From Woeseiaceae bacterium (lineage in GTDB: Bacteria; Pseudomonadota; Gammaproteobacteria; Steroidobacterales; Woeseiaceae), in assembly GCA_021773115.1 (NCBI GenBank), contig JAJFKS010000005.1, forward strand, positions 163,390-227,389: a stretch of DNA of 64,000 bases, written 5' to 3'. Below the pieces are notes generated by a model, which was given only the letters and a program-made list of their open reading frames with translations, did no database searches and was not told the DNA's origin. Positions within the stretch are counted from its first letter, which is position 1. The number at the start of each line of letters is the position of its first letter. Both the position numbers and the translations under genes were made by a program. Shown piece by piece: positions 1 to 14,110 of the stretch.

Positions 1-405
1 TGTCAGGTCTGTCGAGAGAACGGGCTCGCCACCGCCGAGAATCTTGTACAAAGGTGCGTTCAGCGACTGTGCAAACAAATCGTAAACGGCTATTTCAACG
101 GCGGCTTTGGCGCTGAAATTTTTGTACAGCGCGCCCTGAATAAGCTCGACGACATGATTAAGGTTCTGGATATCCTCATTCTGGATAGCGGGGAGAATGA
201 TGGTGCGAATGGCCTCAATGATCGAACCGTGGGTCTCCCCCGTAATAATCGCAGTGGCTGGCGCGCTGCCGAAGCCTTTGTGGCCTGTATCCGTCTCCAA
301 TACGATGACGACGTCTTCCATATGGTCGACACTGCGCAGCGCGGTCTTGAACGGCATTTTGAGCGGGATTCTCAATTTGCCCAGTTGGAAGCCTGTTATT
401 TTCAT
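1..405 (-). CDS. L-Ala-D/L-Glu (dipeptide) epimerase, enolase superfamily; C-terminus beyond the window edge
   Basis: Reverse-strand reading from ATG at 405: MKITGFQLGKLRIPLKMPFKTALRSVDHMEDVVIVLETDTGHKGFGSAPATAIITGET...NFSAKAAVEIAVYDLFAQSLNAPLYKILGG. Typical N-terminal capping domain of dipeptide epimerases. No stop inside the window, so it is missing from the ORF track. Confidence 0.8.
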   Translation of the reverse strand, partial: MKITGFQLGKLRIPLKMPFKTALRSVDHMEDVVIVLETDTGHKGFGSAPATAIITGETHGSIIEAIRTIILPAIQNEDIQNLNHVVELIQGALYKNFSAKAAVEIAVYDLFAQSLNAPLYKILGGGEPVLSTDLT

Positions 406-1355
406 GGTGTCATCTCTGGTTCGTCCACCTGTTCGTTCTCGCACGGCGCCGTAGAATCCAGCGGCTCTTCGACCTGTAGCAGTTCATCCAGACGTTCAGG
501 GTAGTACTTGTCCAGCAACGCAAACAGGATCGCCGCGGACTCCCGCGTCATCTCACGCGTAACTGCCCATGGCTGAAAGTGCAGCTGGAATGCGCGCACG
601 ACATTTCGTGTTTGTTCGTCAATTTCACCCGTCAGTTCGATTTCGTAGCCATAGGCAGCAAGGGCTTTCTGCAGGTTGATCAGTGGCAATGGTTCCGCGC
701 GAAACCTTTCCCAATACTGTATTACCGTCGCGTCGTCGTACCAAGCGCCGTAGCCAAGCGAGGCGAGCCGTTGCCACGGGAAACGCGGGCCCGGATCGAT
801 CTTCCGCCCTGGCGCGATATCAGAATGGCCGATGATGTGTGTCGGTTTGACGTCGGGGTGACGCTCCAGAATTTCGTCGAGCAGTTCGGTCAGGAGCGCA
901 ATTTGACCATCGGCAAAGTCGGGGTAAAAACACAGTCGATCGGGCCCGCCGGTGTAGGGATTCACGCCGGTATCGCTCGCGTGGCACCAGGTTCGGTTGA
1001 CGAGCTCAATGCCGATTGATTGGTCGTTGAGACCGCTTTTGCCGGCCCAGTAGCTGGTGCCGGCGTGCCAGGCGCGGCGCGATTCGTCTACCAGTTTAAA
1101 AATTTTGAGCGGAGATTTGCCGTAGGTCGGATCGCCAGGTTCCGGAATCAGGTAGTGCGAGCTGACCGGATACGAAGACGGTTTGGTCAGAATCTGCAGC
1201 GAATCCCCAAAATTGGCCGTCGTATGATGAATAACGATGATGCTGACGCGGCTGTTTTGATTGGCCGAATCCGTCGTTTGGGTGGTAGTACATGCAACGA
1301 TATTGAATGCCGCAACAAACGTGATAAAAAGAGCTGTGATGCGGCGTAGCATCAT
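402..1355 (-). CDS. N-acetylmuramoyl-L-alanine amidase, AmiD/AmpD-like lipoprotein with C-terminal peptidoglycan-binding domain
   Basis: Amidase_2 motifs (IVIHHTTANF, SSHYLI, IGIELVNR, IIGHSDIAPGRKIDPGPRFPW) and a PG_binding_1-like C-terminus; lipobox FNIVAC. Start placed at MMLRRITALF inside the longer ORF 402..1466; overlaps the epimerase start by 4 bp. Confidence 0.85.
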   Translation of the reverse strand: MMLRRITALFITFVAAFNIVACTTTQTTDSANQNSRVSIIVIHHTTANFGDSLQILTKPSSYPVSSHYLIPEPGDPTYGKSPLKIFKLVDESRRAWHAGTSYWAGKSGLNDQSIGIELVNRTWCHASDTGVNPYTGGPDRLCFYPDFADGQIALLTELLDEILERHPDVKPTHIIGHSDIAPGRKIDPGPRFPWQRLASLGYGAWYDDATVIQYWERFRAEPLPLINLQKALAAYGYEIELTGEIDEQTRNVVRAFQLHFQPWAVTREMTRESAAILFALLDKYYPERLDELLQVEEPLDSTAPCENEQVDEPEMTP

Positions 1356-1488
1356 GTGGGTTTCGTTCTGCATGGGAGGAATTCTGGGAGGAATAAATAA
1401 TTCTTTACTTTTCCGTGCTCGATGATATTTTATGCCGTACAAGGCTGACATAGTCAAGAAAACCATTCAAATTCAGGGGAGCACCATC

Positions 1489-4476
1489 ATGACCTTGTTC
1501 AATTTGGGGAACGCGCCTGCCGTTACCTCGCGTGCGCTAAAATCTGTTCTTAATCTCTTCGTCCTTAGTCTCGCGCTGGCATTCTTCGCCACGCCCGCAA
1601 ACGCACAGCAGACAGGCGAAATTGCCGGCCAGGTTGTCGATGCGAGTGGCGCTGGTGTATCAGGCGTCAGTATTGAGGCCAGCGGTGATGTGTTGCCACA
1701 GGCGCGTACGACAACGTCGGCCGACAACGGCAGTTATCGCTTCCGCCTGTTGCCCCCGGGCAGTTACTCGGTGGTATTCAAGCTGCCCGACGGTAGCACT
1801 CAGACGCGCAATGTCGCAGTGCTACTGCAACAGACTGCCAAAGTTGACATGGTTACTGGTACGTCAATGGAAGAGATCGTGGTTTTAGGGACGCAACTCT
1901 CTCCGGACGCAGGTCAGGGGGCACTTAGCAGTTCGATTAACGCGAGTACCATAGATGCCATACCCGTGGGTCAGGAATATCGCGATCTCATAAAATTGAT
2001 ACCCGGCGTTCAATACTCCGAAGACTCAATTCGCGGTCCTAGTGCGGGCGGCAGTGGCCAGGACAACGCTTACCAGTTCGATGGCGTCGACGTGTCTTTG
2101 CCCTTATTCGGTACCTTGTCAGCAGATCCCTCGTCACATGACATTGCGCAAGTGTCGGTTGTCCGCGGCGGTGCCAAAGCCGTCGGTTTCAATCGCTCCG
2201 GCGGTTTCCTGGTCAACACGGTTAGCAAATCCGGTACTGACGAATTTCGTGCCGAGGCCAGCTACCAGATTCAGTCTGCAAGCCTGACCAGTGACCAGGA
2301 TACTGGCACTAACCGGCTGGAATTTGATGAAGACAAGGCATGGGCGACAGTGAGCCTTGGAGGACCGGTGGTGCGTGACCGCCTGTACTTCTACACGTCG
2401 TACTATGCGCCTACCGCGAAACGCGATAACACGGCGAACGTCTATGGACCTGTCGGTAACTTTGATGACAGTCGCGACGAGTACTTCGGCAAGCTGACGT
2501 TTTCGCCAACCGACAATATTCTCTTTAACGGCAGCTATCGGACTTCGGACCACGACATTCAGAAACGAAGCGTTGGCTCGTTAGGTGCGGACTCCACCTC
2601 AGAGGGGGATAAATCGACTCTCGATGTCGCCATTCTGGAAGGGTCGTGGATCGTAAATGATACGAGTTCCGTAAACTTCAAATATACGGACTTTCAAAAC
2701 GACACGTCTTCCCGACCGGATACCTTGTTCGGGTTTCCGGTCTCCGACGGTGATTCGCTGAATATTGGAGCGCTGGATCAACAAGGTAACTTTTTTGTAC
2801 CTCTGCCGAGAACGGTCGTTGACCCCAGCGATACGGCTTACAACGCCTTCATACAACCGCTAATCAATCAATATGGCTACCTTGATAATGGGGTACCGAC
2901 CGGTGGCGGCAATGTCGGTGGCGCGAGCACATTGAATGATCAGAACTTTTCGCGTGAGAGCTTCGAAATCGCTTTTGATAAGACTTTTTTCATCGGCAAT
3001 ACGACGCACGATCTGCATTTTGGCTACCAGAACCAGACCGTCGAAGAAGAGTTGCTGCGAACATCCAACGGCTGGGGCGCAATTACAGTGCCGGGTGGAC
3101 GGGTGAATGCGTCGGACGGTGTTACACCGGTATTTTTCCAGGCGACACTGCAACAGATGAGCTTCCTGACGTCGGGTGGCGCCGCTCTGGCACCGATCGT
3201 TTCGTCTTCGGAACTGCAGAGCTTCGAGATCAACGACACAATTGAAGTCGGGGACTGGACTTACAACGTTGGTGTGCTGGTTAGCAACGACGTCTTGTTC
3301 GGACAAGGCCTGGCACCGAATGCGTCAAACCCTGTTACGGGTCTCGAAGCGTCGCCGGGCACCAAATACAAAATGTATGAGACCGACTGGTCTGACTTGA
3401 TCCAGCCACGCCTTGGCGCGTCATGGAACTATTCAGACAAGAGCTCAGCCTATGTGAACTATGCGAAGTACAACCCGTCGGCTTCGTCGCTGGCGCGGGC
3501 GGCATCGTGGGATCGCAATTTGTTAGGTGCCCGGGTTGAGACAAATTTTGATGCCAACGGCAATTTTATCGAATCGGTATTGATTGGCGGATCGTCCGGT
3601 AAAATCTTTGATGACAATTTGACGCCACGTAGCATTGACGAGTATCTGATTGGCTGGACCACAGACGTGTCCAGCGAATTAACGCTGCGTGCGCATGTGC
3701 GTTATCGGGACGGCGGACATTTCTGGGAAGATACGAACAACAATGCGCGTTCGAGGTTCTTGCCACCACCAGGCATTCCAACCGAAGATTACATTCCGAA
3801 TCTTCAGGATATTCGTGACGAAATTGGCGGCTCATCGTATGTCATTGCCGAGCTTGATGGCGCTTACACAAAGTACTACGAGGCCAGTTTTGAAGCCGAG
3901 TGGAGCGTTGATGAGTTTTACGTGCGTGGGTCCTATGTCTGGAGTCACTACTACGGCAATTTCGACCAGGACAACTCCACGACCGAAAATGATGCCAATA
4001 CGTTCGTAGGCTCGTCGTTTATCGCTGATGGAGCAGGCCGACAGCTGTGGAACTTCCGCGACGGCAACTTACGTGGTGACCGTCGGCACATGCTGAAAGT
4101 GTACGGGTACTATCTGCTGCCGTGGGACGCGAGTGTTGGCGGGTATCTGGTTTACCAGTCCGGCCAGCCGTGGGAGGCATGGGATGTGGAGGTCTATCGA
4201 GCCCTAACGGGTAGTAGCAGTGACACGAGCCGATACGCGGAACCTGCAGGGTCGCGAACTACCGATGCGCATTATCAACTGGACTTGAATTACACGCATA
4301 ACTTCGCGTTCAAGGGTGACCACAATATTCAATTGCGTGCGGATATTTTCAACGTGTTCGACAATCAAACCGGATACAACATTCAAAATAAAGTGAATAG
4401 TGCGGACTTTGGTCAGCCGCGAGACTTTTTTGACCCGCGTCGCATCCAGTTGGCAGTTAAATATCAGTTCAACTAA
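1489..4476 (+). CDS. TonB-dependent receptor with N-terminal carboxypeptidase-regulatory-like domain (Oar-like)
   Basis: Signal peptide; GEIAGQVVDASGAGVSGVSIEASG...GSYRFRLLPPGSYSV; plug-like region EEIVVLGT...IPVGQEYRDLIKLIPGVQY; long beta-barrel ending AVKYQFN. Start at ATG 1489 after AGGGGA. Confidence 0.9.
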   Translation: MTLFNLGNAPAVTSRALKSVLNLFVLSLALAFFATPANAQQTGEIAGQVVDASGAGVSGVSIEASGDVLPQARTTTSADNGSYRFRLLPPGSYSVVFKLPDGSTQTRNVAVLLQQTAKVDMVTGTSMEEIVVLGTQLSPDAGQGALSSSINASTIDAIPVGQEYRDLIKLIPGVQYSEDSIRGPSAGGSGQDNAYQFDGVDVSLPLFGTLSADPSSHDIAQVSVVRGGAKAVGFNRSGGFLVNTVSKSGTDEFRAEASYQIQSASLTSDQDTGTNRLEFDEDKAWATVSLGGPVVRDRLYFYTSYYAPTAKRDNTANVYGPVGNFDDSRDEYFGKLTFSPTDNILFNGSYRTSDHDIQKRSVGSLGADSTSEGDKSTLDVAILEGSWIVNDTSSVNFKYTDFQNDTSSRPDTLFGFPVSDGDSLNIGALDQQGNFFVPLPRTVVDPSDTAYNAFIQPLINQYGYLDNGVPTGGGNVGGASTLNDQNFSRESFEIAFDKTFFIGNTTHDLHFGYQNQTVEEELLRTSNGWGAITVPGGRVNASDGVTPVFFQATLQQMSFLTSGGAALAPIVSSSELQSFEINDTIEVGDWTYNVGVLVSNDVLFGQGLAPNASNPVTGLEASPGTKYKMYETDWSDLIQPRLGASWNYSDKSSAYVNYAKYNPSASSLARAASWDRNLLGARVETNFDANGNFIESVLIGGSSGKIFDDNLTPRSIDEYLIGWTTDVSSELTLRAHVRYRDGGHFWEDTNNNARSRFLPPPGIPTEDYIPNLQDIRDEIGGSSYVIAELDGAYTKYYEASFEAEWSVDEFYVRGSYVWSHYYGNFDQDNSTTENDANTFVGSSFIADGAGRQLWNFRDGNLRGDRRHMLKVYGYYLLPWDASVGGYLVYQSGQPWEAWDVEVYRALTGSSSDTSRYAEPAGSRTTDAHYQLDLNYTHNFAFKGDHNIQLRADIFNVFDNQTGYNIQNKVNSADFGQPRDFFDPRRIQLAVKYQFN

Positions 4477-4510: not shown

Positions 4511-4569
4511 GCGCCATGCACCGGTTTAACCCACCCCCCCTGGGAAAACCGGAGCATGGCGCATTTTTT
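4511..4569 (+). terminator. Intrinsic terminator/attenuator-like hairpin after the TonB receptor
   Basis: GCGCCATGC-A-CCGGTTT-AA-CCC...GGG-A-AAACCGG-A-GCATGGCGC followed by ATTTTTT; 9+7+3 bp complementary arms. The 3' arm contains the ATG (4556) of the next ORF. Confidence 0.8.
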
Positions 4570-6829
4570 GTGGTGGGCATTGTTGCTGCTGAATCTTATT
4601 TCCTGCAGTGTGGCTGGAAGCAATGCAAAACTTGATTTGCCAGATCTCAGCGACGCGCAATATCGCTGGATCGCGTCGCGAATATTCGAAAACGAGACCA
4701 ACGGCAAGACGAAAAACCTGACCTTCTGGGGAGCCGGTGAGGACTTTCCGTCAATGGGGATCGGGCACTTCATCTGGTTTCCCGAGGGTGTCGACGCGCC
4801 ATTCGACGAAACTTTCCCGGCGATGCTGGATTACGTCAGTGAGCACAGCAACGCATGCGTGACAGTACCGGAGTGGTTGCGGGAAAGACCGGTGCGCGAC
4901 GCGCCGTGGAGTGACAAGGAAAGTTTCGATGCGCTGCAGGAGTCACAGCCCGTCGCATCGCTGCGGCAGTGGCTGGCAAATACCGCACCGCAACAGGCGC
5001 AATTCATCGTCGCGAGTTTCACGCAACGATGGAACGCGCTGCCGCTCGAAGCCGCTAACAAAGCGGAGCTGACTCGTCTTCTGCAAGGATTGCTCGGTAC
5101 ATCAGAAGGCTTGTTCGCCGTAATCGACTATTACAACTTCAAAGGTATCGGCAGCAACCCGCGCGAACGATACGCGGGTGAGGGTTGGGGTCTGGTACAG
5201 GTACTCAGCGATGTTGCAACCGCGTCCAACAACGGTGCCGAGTTAGTCGAGCAGTTCAGTCAAGCCGCGGCGAATCGCCTTGCACAACGGGTCGCCAACG
5301 CGCCGCCGGAACGGCGTGAGGCGCGTTGGCTCGAAGGATGGTACAGACGTGTCGCGGCCTACACCGACACGGCACCAGTACTCGCCGCACCGACAGCTAG
5401 CCAGTATCGTGTTCCACCGTACCTGCAATCGGTATCGGCGGACGGTGCCACTATTGTCTGGTTTAGCGAGAGCGCGAACGCCGCGACGGTGCGCGTCGAG
5501 GGCGACGCGACGAATGTGATCGCGCGTTCGCCACGCCTCGCCTGTGAGCTCGCGTACCACCTCGCCGAGTTTCGCGATGTCGATACGGCACGGTCGTTGC
5601 CCTATCGACACGAAATAAGCCTGCAGGGGCTCGAGTCGGACCGAAGCTATCGCGTCGATATCGATCAGGATGGCGACGCTTCGATGCTGGAATTGCGGAC
5701 GCCCGCATCTGCAAAGGCACGATTCGTGGTTTATGCCGACAGCGAAACCGAGCCTGAATCAAGCGGTGCACATGTCGCGTGGCCGGTACCCGGTGCGGTC
5801 GGTAACGAGCGGCAATATCCGGCCGATCAAACCACGGGCTATGCGGCGAACCTGGCCATCATGGCCGCCAGCAAACCCGATTTCATCGCGATTGCCGGGG
5901 ACCTCGTGCAGTCGGGCGGCGAGCAACGCGATTGGGATGAGTTCTGGCGACAAAATGCAACGCTCGCGGCATCCGTGCCAATCGTACCGGCCTTGGGCAA
6001 CCACGACTACTACGGTGGCCCGGGCGAACTCGGCGGCTACGGAGGCGCAGCATCGGAACGGGCGGCGTCGAAGTATCAGAGCTATTTTGGCCGACCGCCT
6101 TACTACGTCCTCAATGACGGCCCTGTCGCGCTGATCGTACTCGATGCCAATAACGGCAAGCCCGAACGGTCTCCGACGGATACCAACTGGTACTTAAGCG
6201 ACACCGCCCCGGAATGGCAGGAGGGCTCAGAGCAAATGCGGTGGCTGCATGAGACCCTGGCCGAGGCACAAAGCGACAAAGCGTTCACGTTCGTGATGTT
6301 TCATCCGGCACCGTATTCCTCCGGCGTCCATGGCAGGGTGCCAGGAATTGGCGACGCTGAAAACTTCTCCTCGGGACACCCTCTGCGGGAGCTCACGCCA
6401 CTCTTTTTACGTTACGGCGTCGACGCTGTGTTCAATGGTCATGACGAGATGTACGAGCATTCGCTGGTGAAAGGGACGGAGCACAGGTCAGACGGTCGTG
6501 AAACGAACCACAGCGTGCATTTTTTCACGGTGGGTATCGGTGGTGACGGGCTTCGCGGAATTGACACCGGTACCCATAATCCCTACAGCCTGTTCACTGC
6601 AGATGAAAATTCGCCGGAGCTATATGACGCCAACGGGGTCCTGCAGGATGGCGGAAAACACTACGGTCATCTCCTGGTCGACGTCGGACGTCAGGGCGAC
6701 GGCCATTGGGAGGCACGTTTTGAACCTGTTTACGTATTCCCCGTCATGGACGCGCACGGCGAAGTGCAGTCATTTGAGCGGCGCGTCTATGACGATGCAC
6801 TCACATTGAGACGTGAACATGTCGATTAA
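4556..6829 (+). CDS. Exported lysozyme-like (GIGH motif) domain fused to purple-acid-phosphatase-like metallophosphoesterase
   Basis: Lipoprotein signal (LLLLNLISCS); N-terminal IFENETNGKTKNLTFWGAGEDFPSMGIGHFIWFPEG resembles the lysozyme E...(T/S)xGIGH motif; C-terminal GDLVQSGG, GNHDYYGG, MFHPAPYSS, FNGHDEMYEH metallophosphoesterase motifs. Start codon uncertain because ATG 4556 lies in the hairpin. Confidence 0.75.
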   Translation: MAHFLWWALLLLNLISCSVAGSNAKLDLPDLSDAQYRWIASRIFENETNGKTKNLTFWGAGEDFPSMGIGHFIWFPEGVDAPFDETFPAMLDYVSEHSNACVTVPEWLRERPVRDAPWSDKESFDALQESQPVASLRQWLANTAPQQAQFIVASFTQRWNALPLEAANKAELTRLLQGLLGTSEGLFAVIDYYNFKGIGSNPRERYAGEGWGLVQVLSDVATASNNGAELVEQFSQAAANRLAQRVANAPPERREARWLEGWYRRVAAYTDTAPVLAAPTASQYRVPPYLQSVSADGATIVWFSESANAATVRVEGDATNVIARSPRLACELAYHLAEFRDVDTARSLPYRHEISLQGLESDRSYRVDIDQDGDASMLELRTPASAKARFVVYADSETEPESSGAHVAWPVPGAVGNERQYPADQTTGYAANLAIMAASKPDFIAIAGDLVQSGGEQRDWDEFWRQNATLAASVPIVPALGNHDYYGGPGELGGYGGAASERAASKYQSYFGRPPYYVLNDGPVALIVLDANNGKPERSPTDTNWYLSDTAPEWQEGSEQMRWLHETLAEAQSDKAFTFVMFHPAPYSSGVHGRVPGIGDAENFSSGHPLRELTPLFLRYGVDAVFNGHDEMYEHSLVKGTEHRSDGRETNHSVHFFTVGIGGDGLRGIDTGTHNPYSLFTADENSPELYDANGVLQDGGKHYGHLLVDVGRQGDGHWEARFEPVYVFPVMDAHGEVQSFERRVYDDALTLRREHVD

Positions 6830-8288
6830 TATTGGCGGCCTCGATGCAGCGATCATCATTGCTTACATGCTCGCCGTTCTCGCGTTCGGACTCTGGCTGG
6901 GACGTGGCCGGCAAACAGCGACGCGTTATTTTCTCGGCGATCGCTCCTTGCCGTGGGGCGCTTTGTTGTTGTCAATCGTCGCGACCGAGACCAGTACCGT
7001 CACATTCCTGAGTCTCCCGGGACTGGCTGCCGCCGCCGGCGGTAACCTGACGTTCCTGCAAATTACGATTGGCTATATTGCCGGCAGAACCGCTGTCATA
7101 TTTATATTGCTGCCGTTGTATTTCCGCGGTAAACCCTTCACGGCCTACGAGGTTCTTGAAACGCGATTTGGCATGGCAAGTCGGCGTCTCGTATCGAGCC
7201 TGTTTTTGCTGACGCGCAACGCCAGCGATGCGTTGCGGCTGTTCCTGACCGCGCTCGTGTTACAGATCGTCCTCGGCCTCGATTTGAACCTGAGCGTGAT
7301 CTGCATCGGCGCGGTCACGATTCTCTATACGTTTATCGGTGGCGCGAGATCGGTCATTTGGAACGACTGTGTTCAGTTCGTCATTTACATGTTTGGTGCG
7401 GCAGCAGCAGCTTACGTCATCGTTGGCGAAGCGCCAGGTGGTTTGGAGCACATCGTGGAGTTCGCGAATGACAGCGACAAACTGCGAATCTTTGATTTCG
7501 ATATGAGCCTTACGAAGCCCGGCATGACGTTTTGGGCTGGGCTCGCAGGCGGTGCATTTCTTACGGCCGCAACGCATGGAACAGACCAGATGATGGTGCA
7601 GCGTTACCTGTCAGCTCGAAACCAGCGCGATGCATCGTTGGCGCTCGGTATCAGTGGCTTCATCGTGTTGTTGCAGTTCGCCGTGTTCCTGCTGATCGGT
7701 ATCGGACTCGCAGCGATGTTCAATATCACGGATGCAGGCTCGACGGTTAACGTCAAGAATGACCAGCTGCTCGCGTACTTTATCGTCAATTACATGCCGG
7801 CAGGACTGCTGGGTATCACGCTCGCCGCCGTGTTCGCCGCGGCGATGTCAACGCTTTCAAGCTCTTTAAATTCCTCGGCGGCGGCATTCATCAATGATAT
7901 TTACCTGCCGCTGCAAAAAAATGAACCGGCCGAAGCACGCAAACTGACTGCGAGCCGTGTGGCGACGGTCGTGTTCGGATTCGTGCAAATTGCCATCGCA
8001 CTTGCCTTCGGCCTGCTGACGTCAAACGAAAGTATTGTCGCAAATGTTCTCAAGATCAGTGGGTTTGCTGCAGGTCCCGTGCTGGGCCTCTACTTCCTGG
8101 GTGTTTTCGCGCCGAACGTGCGCCAACGATCGGCATTATCGGGATTCGTTGTCGGCGTCGGTGTATTGTCTGTTATTGCCTATTCAACACCTGTCCATTG
8201 GGCATGGTATGCGCTATTCGGTTCCATGGTGACACTTTTGGCCGGCAATCTCGCGAATCGTCTGGAGGGACGTAAACTTGAGCAATGA
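6819..8288 (+). CDS. Sodium:solute symporter (SSS family)
   Basis: Multi-TM protein with SSS signatures (AAAMSTLSSSLNSSAAAFINDIY; GLWLGRGRQTATRYFLGDRSLPWG). Start overlaps the preceding stop by 11 bp. Confidence 0.88.
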   Translation: MSINIGGLDAAIIIAYMLAVLAFGLWLGRGRQTATRYFLGDRSLPWGALLLSIVATETSTVTFLSLPGLAAAAGGNLTFLQITIGYIAGRTAVIFILLPLYFRGKPFTAYEVLETRFGMASRRLVSSLFLLTRNASDALRLFLTALVLQIVLGLDLNLSVICIGAVTILYTFIGGARSVIWNDCVQFVIYMFGAAAAAYVIVGEAPGGLEHIVEFANDSDKLRIFDFDMSLTKPGMTFWAGLAGGAFLTAATHGTDQMMVQRYLSARNQRDASLALGISGFIVLLQFAVFLLIGIGLAAMFNITDAGSTVNVKNDQLLAYFIVNYMPAGLLGITLAAVFAAAMSTLSSSLNSSAAAFINDIYLPLQKNEPAEARKLTASRVATVVFGFVQIAIALAFGLLTSNESIVANVLKISGFAAGPVLGLYFLGVFAPNVRQRSALSGFVVGVGVLSVIAYSTPVHWAWYALFGSMVTLLAGNLANRLEGRKLEQ

Positions 8289-9666
8289 CATCGTTGCGGC
8301 GCTGCAGGATATCGTCGGTGAGCGGCACGTACTTAGCGGTGACGCGGTTGCCGAAATTGGATTTCCCTGGAACACCCATTCCGGGTGCGCGGCACGAGCA
8401 ATCGTCAAGCCTGCAAGCACCGAAGAAGTGGCGGCGATTATGCGTTGCTGCAACCTGGCCGGGCAAACTGTCGTGCCGTTTGGCGGTATGACCAATCTCG
8501 TGCAGGGTTGTGCGACGGCCGCCGATGATATCGTCCTGTCGCTCGCGCGCATGAATCGCGTTGAAGACGTCGATCGGCCGGCTGCGACAATGACCGCACA
8601 GGCCGGCGTCACCCTGCACGCTGCTCAAGAGGCGGCTGCGGCGGCAGATTTGTTTTTTCCGCTTGATATTGGTGCGCGCGCCAGCTGCCAGCTCGGGGGA
8701 CTTGCGGCCAACAACGCCGGTGGTAACAAAGTCATTCGTTACGGGATGACACGGGACACAGTTCTCGGGCTCGAGGCTGTGCTGGCGGACGGCACGGTCA
8801 TCTCATCGATGAACCGTTACATCAAGAATAACTCCGGCTTTGATCTGAAGCACTTGTTTATCGGTAGTGAGGGGGTGCTCGGCATAATTACGCGACTCGT
8901 ATTCCGCCTGCGCGCCACGGCTCGCAGCCACAACGTTGCGTTGCTGGCTTGCGGGAGTTTTGACGATGTAATCGCGATGCTTGAAATCGCAAATCGCACA
9001 TTGCCGACTACAATCAGCGCGTTCGAAGTGATGTGGGACAGCTTTTACGATCGCGCCGTGCAGCCGCGCGGCAGATTGGCGCCGCCGCTGGAGCCGGGTG
9101 CCGGACTCTACGTTCTTATCGAGACCATGGGTGTTGATCAGGAACACGACACGACGGCGTTCGAGGCGCTGCTTGAAGATCTGATGAATCAAGATCTGTG
9201 TGTTGACGGTATGCTCGCCAAGTCGGATCGTGAACGCGAGCTTATCTGGGAGATTCGCGACGAGGTTGAGCCGGTAATTGGCGGCGCACACAATTTTGAC
9301 GTTAGCCTGCGAAGTGCTGACGTTGGCGAGTACGTGAGTAAGGTCGAGGCGGCGATCACAGCGCTGTTTCCGGAGGCCAGTGTCATCGGATTCGGCCACC
9401 TCGGCGATAACAACGTGCACATATCGGTGGCGGATGTTGTTTGGGATGACAAAAAGATTCGGCAGGTCGAAGAGCAGGTATACGGCTGCCTTGCGCCCTT
9501 CGATGGCGCGATCTCGGCGGAGCATGGTATCGGTCTCGAGAAGCGTGCGTATCTGCCAATCAGTCGCAGCCAGGCCGAGATCGAGTTGATGAAATCGCTG
9601 AAGCGCATGCTCGACCCGAAGAATATTTTGAACCCCGGCAAAGTTGTCGACGCAGCGTCGCAATGA
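8278..9666 (+). CDS. FAD-binding oxidase, D-lactate/D-2-hydroxyacid dehydrogenase (GlcD/Dld-like)
   Basis: FAD_binding_4 and FAD-oxidase C motifs: VPFGGMTNLVQG, GGLAANNAGGNKVIRYGMTRD, GFGHLGDNNVHI, SAEHGIGLEK, DPKNILNPGKV. TTG start overlaps the symporter stop. Confidence 0.85.
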   Translation: MSNDIVAALQDIVGERHVLSGDAVAEIGFPWNTHSGCAARAIVKPASTEEVAAIMRCCNLAGQTVVPFGGMTNLVQGCATAADDIVLSLARMNRVEDVDRPAATMTAQAGVTLHAAQEAAAAADLFFPLDIGARASCQLGGLAANNAGGNKVIRYGMTRDTVLGLEAVLADGTVISSMNRYIKNNSGFDLKHLFIGSEGVLGIITRLVFRLRATARSHNVALLACGSFDDVIAMLEIANRTLPTTISAFEVMWDSFYDRAVQPRGRLAPPLEPGAGLYVLIETMGVDQEHDTTAFEALLEDLMNQDLCVDGMLAKSDRERELIWEIRDEVEPVIGGAHNFDVSLRSADVGEYVSKVEAAITALFPEASVIGFGHLGDNNVHISVADVVWDDKKIRQVEEQVYGCLAPFDGAISAEHGIGLEKRAYLPISRSQAEIELMKSLKRMLDPKNILNPGKVVDAASQ

Positions 9667-9761: not shown

Positions 9762-10958
9762 TCAGTCGTACAGCAGGTAGTTAGCGCGTCGCGTATTGAA
9801 TTCGTCAAGCCCGCTTTGGTATGCGGCCTGGATCTCAGTCACGCTCTTGCCGTCAAGCAAGGCCCCGAACGCGGCGTCATTGCCAAGCAGGCGAATATAG
9901 CGTTCGGTCTGCCAGTCATCAGGATACTCGAGCAACAGTTGCCGGGCGATGCTGAGACCGGTCGTCAGCGGTTCGAAGACAGTGCGGTCTGTTATCGTAA
10001 AGCGCACGCCTTCACAGGACTCTTCGGCAAACACACTCGCATCCGGCGTAAACTGTGTGGCCGTGAATGCGATACCCGGGATTTTCAGCGCGTTCAGTTT
10101 CCTGGCGAGCGACGTACCGTCGAGCCACGGAGCGCCGATGAGCTCGAAGGGCGTATCGGTGCCGCGGCCCACAGACAGGTTGGTGGTCTCAAGCAATCCG
10201 ATACCCGGATACAACAAAGCCGCACGCTGGCTGCGCATATTGGGCGACGGATTTACCCAGGCCAGACCCGTGTCGTCGAGGAACTCGCCGCGTCGCCAGC
10301 CCTCAATGCGCACCACCTGCAAGTCGAGGTCGAGACCCAGTTCATCCTTAAAGAGCTTGGCGAGTTCACCCACGGTCATGCCGTGGCGCACGGGGATCGT
10401 ATGAAAGCCGACGAACGACTGCAGGCCGTCATCGAGTACGGGCCCGGCGACATCAATACCGTTAATCGGGTTGGGGCGGTCGAGGACGACAAAGCGAACA
10501 TTGTGTTGGGCGGCGGCCATCATGGCGTTTCCCAGCGTCGAAATGTAGGTGTAGAAGCGCGTGCCGATATCCTGGATATCAAAAACGAGCGTGTCGATGC
10601 CGGCGAGCATGGCCGGTGTCGGTCGACGTACCTCGCCGTACAGGCTAATGACCGGAATGCGCGTAGAGGCCTCAAGCTCATCACCGATGATCGGGATATC
10701 AAGTTTTCCGGAAAGACTGTGCTCGGGACTGAAAATGCGCACGAGCTCAAGCTTGCTTGCAGTGTGCAACAGCTGAATCGTACTGCGGCCGTCCCGGTTA
10801 AGACCGGTGTGATTGGTAATCAGGCCAACACGGCTACCGGCCAGTTGTCGGAAACCGTCGCGTTCGAGCACGTCGACGCCGGGCAGCGTGTCGCCGGCGT
10901 CAACTGACTGGGCTGCAACGAGCAGCAAAAGGAAAAATAGAAAATGTCGAGATTTCAT
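9762..10958 (-). CDS. namZ: DUF1343 family exo-beta-N-acetylmuramidase (NamZ-like)
   Basis: Signal peptide MKSRHFLFFLLLLVAAQSVDA; VGLITNHTGLNRDGRSTIQLL, FDIQDIGTRFYTYI, VLDRPNPINGIDVAGP, LLYPGIGLLETTNLSVGRGTDTPFE are DUF1343 hallmarks. Confidence 0.87.
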   Translation of the reverse strand: MKSRHFLFFLLLLVAAQSVDAGDTLPGVDVLERDGFRQLAGSRVGLITNHTGLNRDGRSTIQLLHTASKLELVRIFSPEHSLSGKLDIPIIGDELEASTRIPVISLYGEVRRPTPAMLAGIDTLVFDIQDIGTRFYTYISTLGNAMMAAAQHNVRFVVLDRPNPINGIDVAGPVLDDGLQSFVGFHTIPVRHGMTVGELAKLFKDELGLDLDLQVVRIEGWRRGEFLDDTGLAWVNPSPNMRSQRAALLYPGIGLLETTNLSVGRGTDTPFELIGAPWLDGTSLARKLNALKIPGIAFTATQFTPDASVFAEESCEGVRFTITDRTVFEPLTTGLSIARQLLLEYPDDWQTERYIRLLGNDAAFGALLDGKSVTEIQAAYQSGLDEFNTRRANYLLYD

Positions 10959-10978
10959 AGAATGGATACAGTAGAGCA

Positions 10979-11875
10979 ATGCACGAGAACTTGACAACTG
11001 AAGCGGCGAATCCTGGTTCGACCGATCTGGATCGGCTGACTAGCGTCGAGCTCGTGCAGCTGATTAATGCCGAGGATGCGAATATCGCGGCTGCGGTCGC
11101 CGAACAATCCGAAGTGATTGCAGAGGCGGTTGATTTGATCGCAGCAAGACTTGCGGAGGGTGGGCGATTGATTTATCTCGGCGCGGGAACGTCTGGTCGG
11201 CTCGGGGTACTGGACGCCTCCGAGTGTCCGCCGACCTTCAACGCTGATCCATCACAGGTTGTGGGTTTGATCGCAGGTGGTGACGAAGCGCTGCGGCGCG
11301 CCATTGAAGGGGCGGAGGACTCCGCGGATCTTGGTGCCGAGAACCTCAGGCAGCTGAAACTGACCGCGAAGGACGTCGTTGTTGGCATCGCTGCCAGCGG
11401 CACCACGCCCTATGTCTTGGGAGCGCTGGACGAAGCGCGCTCAATAGGCGCGGCGACCATCGGCCTGACATGCAATCGTGATGCGCCGATAGCTCTGCAC
11501 GCCGACATTTCGATAGCGGTCGTTACAGGTCCCGAAGTGCTGGCCGGGTCAACCCGTATGAAAGCCGGCACCGCCACCAAGATGGTACTCAACATGCTAA
11601 GCACGGCGTCGATGGTCCGTTTAGGTAAGACATACGGCAACCTGATGGTTGACCTGCGCGCAAGCAACGAAAAGCTTATCGGCCGATCCTTGCGAATCCT
11701 GCAGTCATTGAGCGGGCTGACGCTGGGCGAGGCGAGGACCGTACTCGATGCCAGTGACGGGGAGCTCAAGACAGCCATTGTCAGTCAGCGGCTCGACATC
11801 AGCGCCGAAAAAGCACGGCAGCGCTTGCGGGATGCGAGCGGTCGCCTGCGTGCCGCGCTCGGTGAAGATGAGTAA
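10979..11875 (+). CDS. murQ: N-acetylmuramic acid 6-phosphate etherase
   Basis: SIS-domain MurQ motifs: IYLGAGTSGRLGVLDASECPPTF, GLIAGGDEAL, VVGIAASGTTPYVLGAL, VLAGSTRMKAGTATKMVLNMLST. Confidence 0.95.
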   Translation: MHENLTTEAANPGSTDLDRLTSVELVQLINAEDANIAAAVAEQSEVIAEAVDLIAARLAEGGRLIYLGAGTSGRLGVLDASECPPTFNADPSQVVGLIAGGDEALRRAIEGAEDSADLGAENLRQLKLTAKDVVVGIAASGTTPYVLGALDEARSIGAATIGLTCNRDAPIALHADISIAVVTGPEVLAGSTRMKAGTATKMVLNMLSTASMVRLGKTYGNLMVDLRASNEKLIGRSLRILQSLSGLTLGEARTVLDASDGELKTAIVSQRLDISAEKARQRLRDASGRLRAALGEDE

Positions 11876-12824
11876 GCGCACACACATTCTTGGTATTGAT
11901 GGTGGTGGCTCGAAAACAGCTGTGCGCATCGCCTTAATCGAAAACGACGGCGCGATACAAGTCGTCGGTGATGGGCACAGTGGTCCGTCCAATGTGCGCG
12001 CTGTTGGGCAGGCGCATGCAGAGATCAATCTCAATGTGGCAGTCGATGCGGCGCATCGCATGGCCGGGACTTCCAAAGACGTCATCGACTATGCGGTACT
12101 GGGTCTGGCCGGCAGTTCGTCGCCCGAGGTTAAATCCTTTATCGAAAACTGGGCCGCGCGAAGAGCACTCGCGAAAACCGTCGACATTGTGCACGACGCC
12201 GACCCGGTGCTGGCGGTCGGCGCACCTGATGGTGATGGTATCGCCCTCATCGTCGGCACGGGTTCTGCGGCGATCGGTCGCGGCAGCGATGGGCAGCGTC
12301 TGGTCACAGGTGGCTGGGGACACTGGTTCGGTGACACTGGCAGCGGCTACGACCTCGGACGTCGGGCGTTGGCAGCCGTGGCCGATGCGGTGGATGGTGT
12401 CGGGCCCGAAACGCTACTCGTAGAGCGCGTTCTGCGGCATCTGCACACCGACAATCCTCGCGAGATACTGAAACAGCTTGGTCGCAATACCGATGTGAGT
12501 CGTGAGATTGCGTCGGTCGCGCGTATTCTGCTGGCTGCGGCCGAAGACGGTGACGAGGTTGCCAATGTCATTGTCACCGCTGCCGCCGCTGGCACGGCAG
12601 CGCTGGTGCGCGCGACGATCGACAAACTTGGCCTGGAGCATGATGCGCCATTGGCGATTGCTGGCGGAGTGGTGTGTTCGAACACAATGTACCGCGAAAC
12701 CTTGTTGCAGAATTTACGAGCGCAGGGAATCGAACCTGCGTTAGTTACCGTCGTGCACGAGCCGGTCGAAGGCTGCCTGCTAATGGCGCGTGAACGCCTG
12801 CTTGGCACAAAGACTGTGATGTGA
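11868..12824 (+). CDS. BadF/BadG-type amino-sugar kinase (N-acetylglucosamine/MurNAc kinase-like)
   Basis: ILGIDGGGSKTAVRI, GHSGPSNVR, IVGTGSAAIGRGSDG, GGWGHWFGDTGSGYDLGRRAL. Start at ATG 11868 overlaps the murQ stop; the ORF-track start at 11748 is inside murQ. Confidence 0.87.
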   Translation: MSKRTHILGIDGGGSKTAVRIALIENDGAIQVVGDGHSGPSNVRAVGQAHAEINLNVAVDAAHRMAGTSKDVIDYAVLGLAGSSSPEVKSFIENWAARRALAKTVDIVHDADPVLAVGAPDGDGIALIVGTGSAAIGRGSDGQRLVTGGWGHWFGDTGSGYDLGRRALAAVADAVDGVGPETLLVERVLRHLHTDNPREILKQLGRNTDVSREIASVARILLAAAEDGDEVANVIVTAAAAGTAALVRATIDKLGLEHDAPLAIAGGVVCSNTMYRETLLQNLRAQGIEPALVTVVHEPVEGCLLMARERLLGTKTVM

Positions 12825-14110
12825 CCGGATTGAGCCAAAAGCGCAGCCGCTGGACCTGGCTGCCAAGTCTGTATTTCGCTGAAGGCTTGCCATTTGTCGC
12901 GGCAATGACCGTGTCCGTGATCATGTACAAGCGACTCGATATATCCAATGCCGAGGTCGCGTTTTACACCAGTTGGTTGTACCTGCCGTGGGTAATCAAG
13001 CCCCTTTGGAGCCCGATTGTCGATCTCCTGAAGACTCGCCGCTTCTGGATTATCGCGATGCAGCTTCTGTTGGGTGCCGGCTTCGCAACCGTCGCACTGT
13101 GTATCCAGGCGGACAATTTCTTTCGCTACTCACTCGCTGCATTCTGGCTCATCGCATTCAGTTCGGCGACGCACGATATTGCGGCAGACGGTTTTTATAT
13201 CCTGTCTCTATCGGACCACGAACAGGCCTGGTTCGTCGGCATTCGCAATACGTTCTACCGTCTCGCAATGATAGCCGGCCAGGGATTACTGGTTATGGTT
13301 GCCGGTTATCTCGAAAACGAAACGAACAATATACAACTCTCCTGGAGCATTGTTTTCTATCTGCTTGCAGGCTTTTATGTTGTGTTGTTCGCCTGGCACA
13401 GGAAGGTCCTGCCGCGACCGGGAGCGGACGTCATCGGCGTGGCAGAGTCCCTGGGCAGTCTGCTGGCGAAGTTCGTTCACACCTTTGTCATGTTTTTTAA
13501 AAAACAGCACATCGGCAAAGTACTGGCGTTTCTATTGCTGTACCGGGTCGCCGAGGCCCAATTGGCAAAGCTCGCACCGCCCTTTCTGCTGGATGAGCGC
13601 TCAATCGGCGGACTTGGCCTGGCCACCTCGGACGTGGGTTTTGTCTATGGTACGGTCGGCGCGTTGATGTTGACGCTGGGTGGCTTGCTGGGCGGTTTCC
13701 TGGCGGCACGGGACGGGCTCCGACATTGGCTCTGGTGGATGGTTCTGGCGATCAATTTGCCGAATGCGGTCTACGTGTTGCTCGCATTCGCGCAACCGGA
13801 TAGCGTACTACTGGTAACTATTGCTGTCGGCATTGAGCAATTTGGATACGGACTCGGTTTCGCCGCGTATACACTGTATATGTTGTACGTGTCGAGGGGC
13901 ACCCATAGCACGGCGCACTTCGCAATTTGCACAGGCTTTATGGCGCTTGGCATGATGCTCCCTGGTATGGTCAGCGGCTGGTTTCAGGAGGTGCTGGGTT
14001 ATCAGAATTTCTTCATCTGGGTGCTGGCAGCGACAATTCCGTCATTCATCGTCGTAGCGATGATACCGCTTGACCCGGACTTCGGGCGCGAGAAATCCGA
14101 AGTGTCATGA
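12821..14110 (+). CDS. ampG: AmpG-like MFS permease (muropeptide/anhydro-sugar importer)
   Basis: LYFAEGLPF, WVIKPLWSPIVD, SSATHDIAADGFYI and multiple TMs; GTG start overlaps the kinase stop by 4 bp. Confidence 0.83.
   Translation: MTGLSQKRSRWTWLPSLYFAEGLPFVAAMTVSVIMYKRLDISNAEVAFYTSWLYLPWVIKPLWSPIVDLLKTRRFWIIAMQLLLGAGFATVALCIQADNFFRYSLAAFWLIAFSSATHDIAADGFYILSLSDHEQAWFVGIRNTFYRLAMIAGQGLLVMVAGYLENETNNIQLSWSIVFYLLAGFYVVLFAWHRKVLPRPGADVIGVAESLGSLLAKFVHTFVMFFKKQHIGKVLAFLLLYRVAEAQLAKLAPPFLLDERSIGGLGLATSDVGFVYGTVGALMLTLGGLLGGFLAARDGLRHWLWWMVLAINLPNAVYVLLAFAQPDSVLLVTIAVGIEQFGYGLGFAAYTLYMLYVSRGTHSTAHFAICTGFMALGMMLPGMVSGWFQEVLGYQNFFIWVLAATIPSFIVVAMIPLDPDFGREKSEVS

Follow-up and report, generated by a model that had tools for sequence, protein, structure and literature searches.

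Introduction

Two traits define the lysozyme superfamily: a catalytic glutamate that closes a central helix, and a β-hairpin in which each of its families is most strongly conserved (Wohlkonig et al., 2010, PMC2976769). In the representatives compared in that study, the hairpin region starts between 13 (GH24v) and 22 (GH46) residues past this glutamate, and later in GH19 and in lambda lysozyme (PMC2976769). DslA of Bdellovibrio bacteriovorus is a divergent enzyme of the superfamily that is specific for deacetylated peptidoglycan; it carries the helix glutamate, a second glutamate on the first strand of the hairpin and a supporting serine, and its Glu154 and Asp43 of chitosanase are counterparts for the second acid (PMC7511926). 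For the MurNAc released from peptidoglycan, the NamZ/MurK/MurQ pathway (murTKQ and NamZ) of Tannerella forsythia has been described (PMC10465942).

Here, we analysed a gene of the window (the whole stretch of 64,000 nucleotides) whose product joins an exported domain of lysozyme-superfamily fold to a metallophosphoesterase. We think it probable that the N-terminal domain belongs to the lysozyme superfamily as a new sequence family and cuts the glycan of peptidoglycan, as part of an exported scavenging enzyme with the phosphoesterase as an accessory.

Results

The fusion reading frame runs uninterrupted from the ATG at 4556 to the stop codon at 6827–6829 and encodes 757 amino acids. It is a real gene, as the original prediction had assumed, and the FENE, GIGH and metallophosphoesterase motifs lie where that prediction had placed them. 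The parts of the protein and the surrounding genes are listed in Table 1. The predicted export of the protein agrees with its signal peptide and with a hydrophobic export-type leader in 101 of 107 members of the N-domain family, 38 of which also match a simple lipobox-like pattern. Its designation as a lipoprotein suits the window protein, which has a lipobox (LISC, Cys17), but does not extend to several fused relatives with a plain signal peptide. Judged by its sequence, the fusion protein is probably an exported, lipidated enzyme of a peptidoglycan-scavenging island. No description of this architecture was found in the open-access literature searched.

Table 1. Coordinates of the fusion gene, of the parts of its product and of the neighbouring genes (positions in the window unless marked L147).
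Feature	Position	Strand	Remarks
NlpC/P60 protein with SH3_6	L147 13361-14638	-	upstream of window
L-Ala-D/L-Glu epimerase-like gene (dipeptide epimerase)	L147 14680-15834	-	upstream of window
N-acetylmuramoyl-L-alanine amidase (Amidase_2 + PG_binding_1)	402..1466	-	
TonB-dependent-receptor-like outer-membrane protein	1432..4476	+	CarboxypepD_reg domain; putative receptor, from sequence
Fusion gene: exported lysozyme-fold domain, FnIII-like domain and PAP-type metallophosphoesterase	4556..6829	+	757 aa
Signal peptide with lipobox L14-I-S-C17	4556..4606	+	sequence; survey of leaders
Lysozyme-superfamily domain, residues 22-270	4619..5365	+	without Pfam, NCBIfam or PHROG model
Glu47, presumed general acid	4694..4696	+	invariant (98/98); near the C-terminal end of central helix 33-48 in the model
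Glu62, preceding the hairpin; candidate for the second catalytic acid	4739..4741	+	96/98; by analogy with DslA E154 and chitosanase D43
FPSMGIGHFIW β-hairpin, residues 64-74	4745..4777	+	conservation maximum of the family; alignment and model
AVIDYYNFKGIG motif, residues 188-199	5117..5152	+	second conservation peak; Asp191, Phe195, Gly197 and Gly199 invariant
β-sandwich (FnIII-like) domain, residues ~284-395	5405..5740	+	full-length model
Metallophosphoesterase domain, residues 388-757: D395-S-E397, GD449LVQ, GN482-H483, H583, GH629-D-E631	5717..6826	+	
Sodium/solute symporter (SSF)	6813..8288	+	
FAD-linked oxidase, GlcD/D-lactate-dehydrogenase type	8278..9666	+	D-lactate role putative
NamZ, exo-β-N-acetylmuramidase	9762..10997	-	E 4.8e-80 and 9.2e-46
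MurQ, MurNAc-6-phosphate etherase	10979..11875	+	above equivalog cut-off (388 vs 302 bits)
BadF/NagK-type sugar kinase, presumed MurNAc/GlcNAc kinase	11748..12824	+	below NagK equivalog cut-off
AmpG-like MFS transporter	12821..14110	+	below subfamily cut-off

Scans of the first 281 residues of the fusion against Pfam and NCBIfam returned no match, and no credible family was found for the N-domain in Pfam, NCBIfam or PHROG, nor for any of 98 aligned relatives in Pfam or PHROG. A search of PDB sequences with the 98-member profile gave chance matches only (TRIM5, PTAC18). The family is nevertheless widespread. Using an alignment of six members, we obtained at least 579 pattern matches in GTDB representative genomes, at least 560 of which encode a relative; the best 80 matches cover Gammaproteobacteria, Verrucomicrobiota, Omnitrophota, Desulfobacterota, Myxococcota, Chlamydiota, Sumerlaeota and Kapaibacteria. 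The domain is carried by 18 of 274 genomes sampled from the class of the window and by 51 of 399 sampled from its phylum, in the latter nearly always as a single copy. It is usually a stand-alone exported protein: all N-domain frames in the phylum sample have at most 417 amino acids, except the window's own. A phage-borne origin is unsupported, since neither phage records (tblastn with member L088) nor plasmid records (tblastn with the window N-domain) gave a match; the viral contigs searched contained no relative either.

The fold of the N-domain was modelled by AlphaFold2 with 98 sequences (mean pLDDT 95.5, pTM 0.92). In a Foldseek comparison with the PDB, the five best matches were GH46 chitosanases (4ily, 1qgi, 4qwp, 4olt and 2d05; E 0.017–0.098, probability 0.82–1.00, with 4ily at 1.00 and 0.017), and these are the sole credible ones, the next match having a probability below 0.1. 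TM-scores were just 0.33–0.48 with an rmsd of 8–12 Å over gapped alignments. Because of these scores and the modest E-values, the likeness to GH46 has to be placed at the level of the superfamily. In a library of viral structures a phage glycoside hydrolase, a GH108 protein and lysozymes were near the top, all as weak matches.

Both defining elements of the superfamily were recovered. Glu47 stands at the helix end, and conservation in ten-residue windows peaks inside residues 64–74, i.e. at +17 to +27 from Glu47, where the model forms a hairpin with strands at 66–67 and 72–73 (DSSP) and where the family-wide pattern is FPSxGIGHFIW. Gly68, Gly70 and His71 are, like Glu47, shared by all 98 aligned relatives; Ser66 is kept in 96, as is Glu62. 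The original prediction had sought the catalytic glutamate in FENE and had named an unrelated fold with no glutamate near GIGH as the finding that would speak against it; the fold is related and Glu47 lies ahead of the hairpin. The second glutamate of FENE, Glu47, is the invariant one; the first, Glu45, varies among relatives and was rejected as a catalytic residue. Ser66 is a candidate for positioning water and, by analogy with DslA Glu154 and chitosanase Asp43, Glu62 for the second acid. The resemblance to DslA would lie in the residue layout, as read from the sequence; DslA itself is deacetyl-specific and was not among the Foldseek matches in the PDB.

By sequence, the domain belongs to neither of the two neighbouring families. 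It shares the layout of helix glutamate and hairpin with the GH46 chitosanases 4ily, 1qgi, 4qwp and 4olt, but its hairpin signature differs and its surroundings point to peptidoglycan rather than chitosan; PF01374 did not match, and hhalign, run in several modes, gave a probability of 0.1% and no similarity. With the phage-type lysozymes of GH24 it has in common the [ST]xG[IY]GH hairpin after the catalytic glutamate, but it is larger, does not match PF00959 and has no GH24 enzyme among its credible fold matches in the PDB. An hhalign comparison of the 98-member alignment with GH24 (E 0.007, probability 5%) aligned exactly the hairpin, WGAGEDFPSMGIGH with YRDAGGVWTIGYGH. The likeness to T4-type lysozymes that had been proposed for this protein is therefore real at the hairpin, and the lysozyme-superfamily fold stands, yet the fold is nearer to GH46 than to GH24. 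Sequence comparison and model together suggest a separate family.

The genes around the fusion support the cell-wall context that had been predicted for the locus, which is a peptidoglycan and MurNAc catabolic island with genes for Amidase_2, NamZ, MurQ, a kinase and an AmpG-like carrier. According to the Pfam and NCBIfam assignments, NamZ, kinase and MurQ genes lie side by side, and the gene content reads as a coherent route from peptidoglycan to GlcNAc-6-phosphate and D-lactate. The kinase scores below the NagK equivalog cut-off, so that its assignment to a given sugar is tentative. NamZ, a sugar kinase, MurQ and an inner-membrane carrier are common to the island and to the T. forsythia pathway (PMC10465942); compared with the latter, the island adds the TonB-type receptor, the FAD oxidase and the fusion. 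Seven related loci (L010–L016) retain parts of its gene order. With the NlpC/P60 and epimerase-like genes immediately upstream of the window, the island also covers murein peptides. In a further genome, the gene after the fused one encodes an RpiR-type (MurR-like) regulator with a SIS domain (L017:8299–9201); the remaining island genes do not adjoin there.

Presence of the N-domain coincides with that of NamZ. Among 40 relatives, six genomes encode both, one the N-domain only, two NamZ only and 31 neither (Fisher p 4.8e-5, with relatives counted as independent and kinship ignored), and in five of the six shared genomes both genes are found on one contig within ~6 kb. Several stand-alone members also adjoin cell-wall genes, namely YkuD L,D-transpeptidases in Verrucomicrobiota (L046, L047, L075, L089) and a CHAP protein (L079), while two others (L041, L058) lie near PG_binding_1 proteins. 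For many others, e.g. in Marinobacter and Thiomicrorhabdus, no peptidoglycan gene adjoins, and a cluster search for a common neighbour of the stand-alone members mostly returned lineage-specific synteny.

Fused reading frames were found in nine other assemblies, so that an assembly artefact was rejected. In a maximum-likelihood tree the fusion is confined to one clade of 11 members (support 89/98), which consists of nine fused sequences and two unfused ones, L007 and L051. The distribution is explained by one gain and two losses, or by three changes. Both unfused members consist of the lysozyme-fold part alone: L007 sits between receptor and symporter genes, and L051 has genes for an amidase, a symporter, an AmpG-like carrier and MurA nearby and is followed by an alanine racemase gene. 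Since these islands resemble that of the window and lack the phosphoesterase, the latter is an optional add-on, an accessory to a constant lysozyme-fold part.

The phosphoesterase half matches PF00149 (Metallophos), the sole Pfam hit in the fusion protein, over residues 437–630 (E 1.4e-15, 58.7 bits vs a Pfam gathering cut-off of 21.5). In the full-length model (mean pLDDT 80.7), Foldseek aligned the β-sandwich and the catalytic domain with purple acid phosphatase (PAP) 1xzw (E 2.1e-16). The two-domain fold and the GD, GNH, H and GH motifs are common to the fusion and to 1xzw, 1kbp and 3zk4, and the FnIII-like domain precedes the catalytic domain as in the plant enzymes. For the metal ligands, we compared an alignment of eleven relatives with a HMMER alignment to the plant enzymes. 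D395, D449, N482, H583 and H629 are kept, whereas two of the seven PAP ligands (D, D, Y, N, H, H, H) are changed in all aligned fused members: in the fused clade, Gln or Glu takes the place of the GDLxY tyrosine, and the second histidine of GHxH is replaced by Glu631 (GHDE) in all aligned relatives. The earlier assignment to PAP-type metallophosphoesterases with all main motifs thus holds for the fold and the placement of the motifs but not for the full ligand set, and a classical purple acid phosphatase was rejected for this half. A stand-alone relative of 736 amino acids with 39% identity is encoded elsewhere (L008:340–2550, on contig C41 of genome G005); its GNH motif reads GNW, and its C-terminal GTDGPDFVLGLKGRDMLTGGDGMDTF region resembles RTX calcium-binding repeats.

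Discussion

The strongest new point of this analysis is the N-terminal half, which defines a widespread family of the lysozyme superfamily that has escaped the model libraries searched, rather than the fusion itself. Considering sequence and model, it is likely that this domain is best read as a periplasmic or surface glycosidase of peptidoglycan that feeds the scavenging of MurNAc. We infer that it would hydrolyse β-1,4 bonds of the glycan strands, with Glu47 as the general acid and Glu62 together with Ser66 positioning or activating water, so that the reaction would proceed with inversion. The amidase and NamZ, which has a signal-like leader, would trim the released pieces, and the symporter or the AmpG-like carrier would import them. 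The imported sugars would then be phosphorylated and the product split by MurQ into GlcNAc-6-phosphate and D-lactate, which the FAD enzyme might oxidise. The fused PAP-fold domain would strip phosphate mono- or diesters off the same material.

A fold by itself is no proof of catalysis, and the N-domain might be a catalytically dead module that binds peptidoglycan and tethers the phosphoesterase. We regard this as very improbable, as Glu47 is invariant, Ser66 and Glu62 are nearly so, and the domain usually makes up a whole protein. More weight, though still little, is due to a glycosidase acting on some other β-1,4-linked aminoglycan, be it chitosan, a chitin-like polymer, N-deacetylated peptidoglycan or an exopolysaccharide. 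Chitosan is among the substrates of GH46-like folds, the nearest among solved structures, so that another aminoglycan could be cut here as well, and DslA demonstrates that enzymes of the superfamily can be specific for deacetylated peptidoglycan (PMC7511926). However, the domain has no sequence relation to GH46, and the island encodes the MurNAc-specific steps of NamZ and MurQ together with murein-peptide enzymes, not chitosan ones.

For the phosphoesterase, two readings were compared. Teichoic acids are attached to C6 of MurNAc by a phosphodiester, and the PAP fold of the domain and its linkage to a cell-wall glycosidase-type domain on a single polypeptide would suit an enzyme that removes wall teichoic acid or the C6 phosphate of MurNAc, thereby letting the lysozyme domain and NamZ act on Gram-positive walls. 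This idea is possible but doubtful, and teichoic acid removal in particular is a guess: the island has no teichoic-acid gene, the island proteins L007 and L051 do without a phosphoesterase, and the 39%-identical relative in G005 belongs to a secreted RTX-like protein. A somewhat better case, although still short of an even one, can be made for a general periplasmic phosphatase or nucleotidase that takes phosphate from cell debris, the fusion merely co-localizing two scavenging activities. Among solved structures, its closest relatives are purple acid phosphatases of plants, a phytase and a diphosphonucleotide phosphatase, and the domain is dispensable in the island; on the other hand, the ligand set departs from that of PAPs in a conserved way, which points to a special substrate or metal.

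The scavenging of peptidoglycan by a lysozyme-fold enzyme with an accessory phosphoesterase remains our preferred reading, and the fusion hints that glycan cleavage and the removal of phosphate are linked. In a bolder version, which we consider unlikely as a whole, the N-domain would be the founder of a glycoside hydrolase family that is new within the lysozyme superfamily and widespread in Pseudomonadota, Verrucomicrobiota, Omnitrophota and others. Its fusion partner in this clade would be a phosphoesterase whose metal site is altered and which takes polymers bound by phosphodiesters off C6 of MurNAc. If true, one protein would de-decorate and cut Gram-positive walls for nutrition.

Hundreds of genomes carry the N-domain family, usually in single copy, which from sequence and model is apparently one of lysozyme-superfamily glycosidases, and naming it would allow a likely cell-wall enzyme to be annotated in several phyla. 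A name would likewise open to testing the way in which abundant marine-sediment bacteria (the genus of the window seems to fall within Woeseiaceae) live on dead bacterial walls. In one genome family within the phylum and outside the class of the window (f201, with genomes of ~2 Mb), many of the sampled genomes have the domain, nearly always just once per genome, and a housekeeping role is suggested for it in that family.
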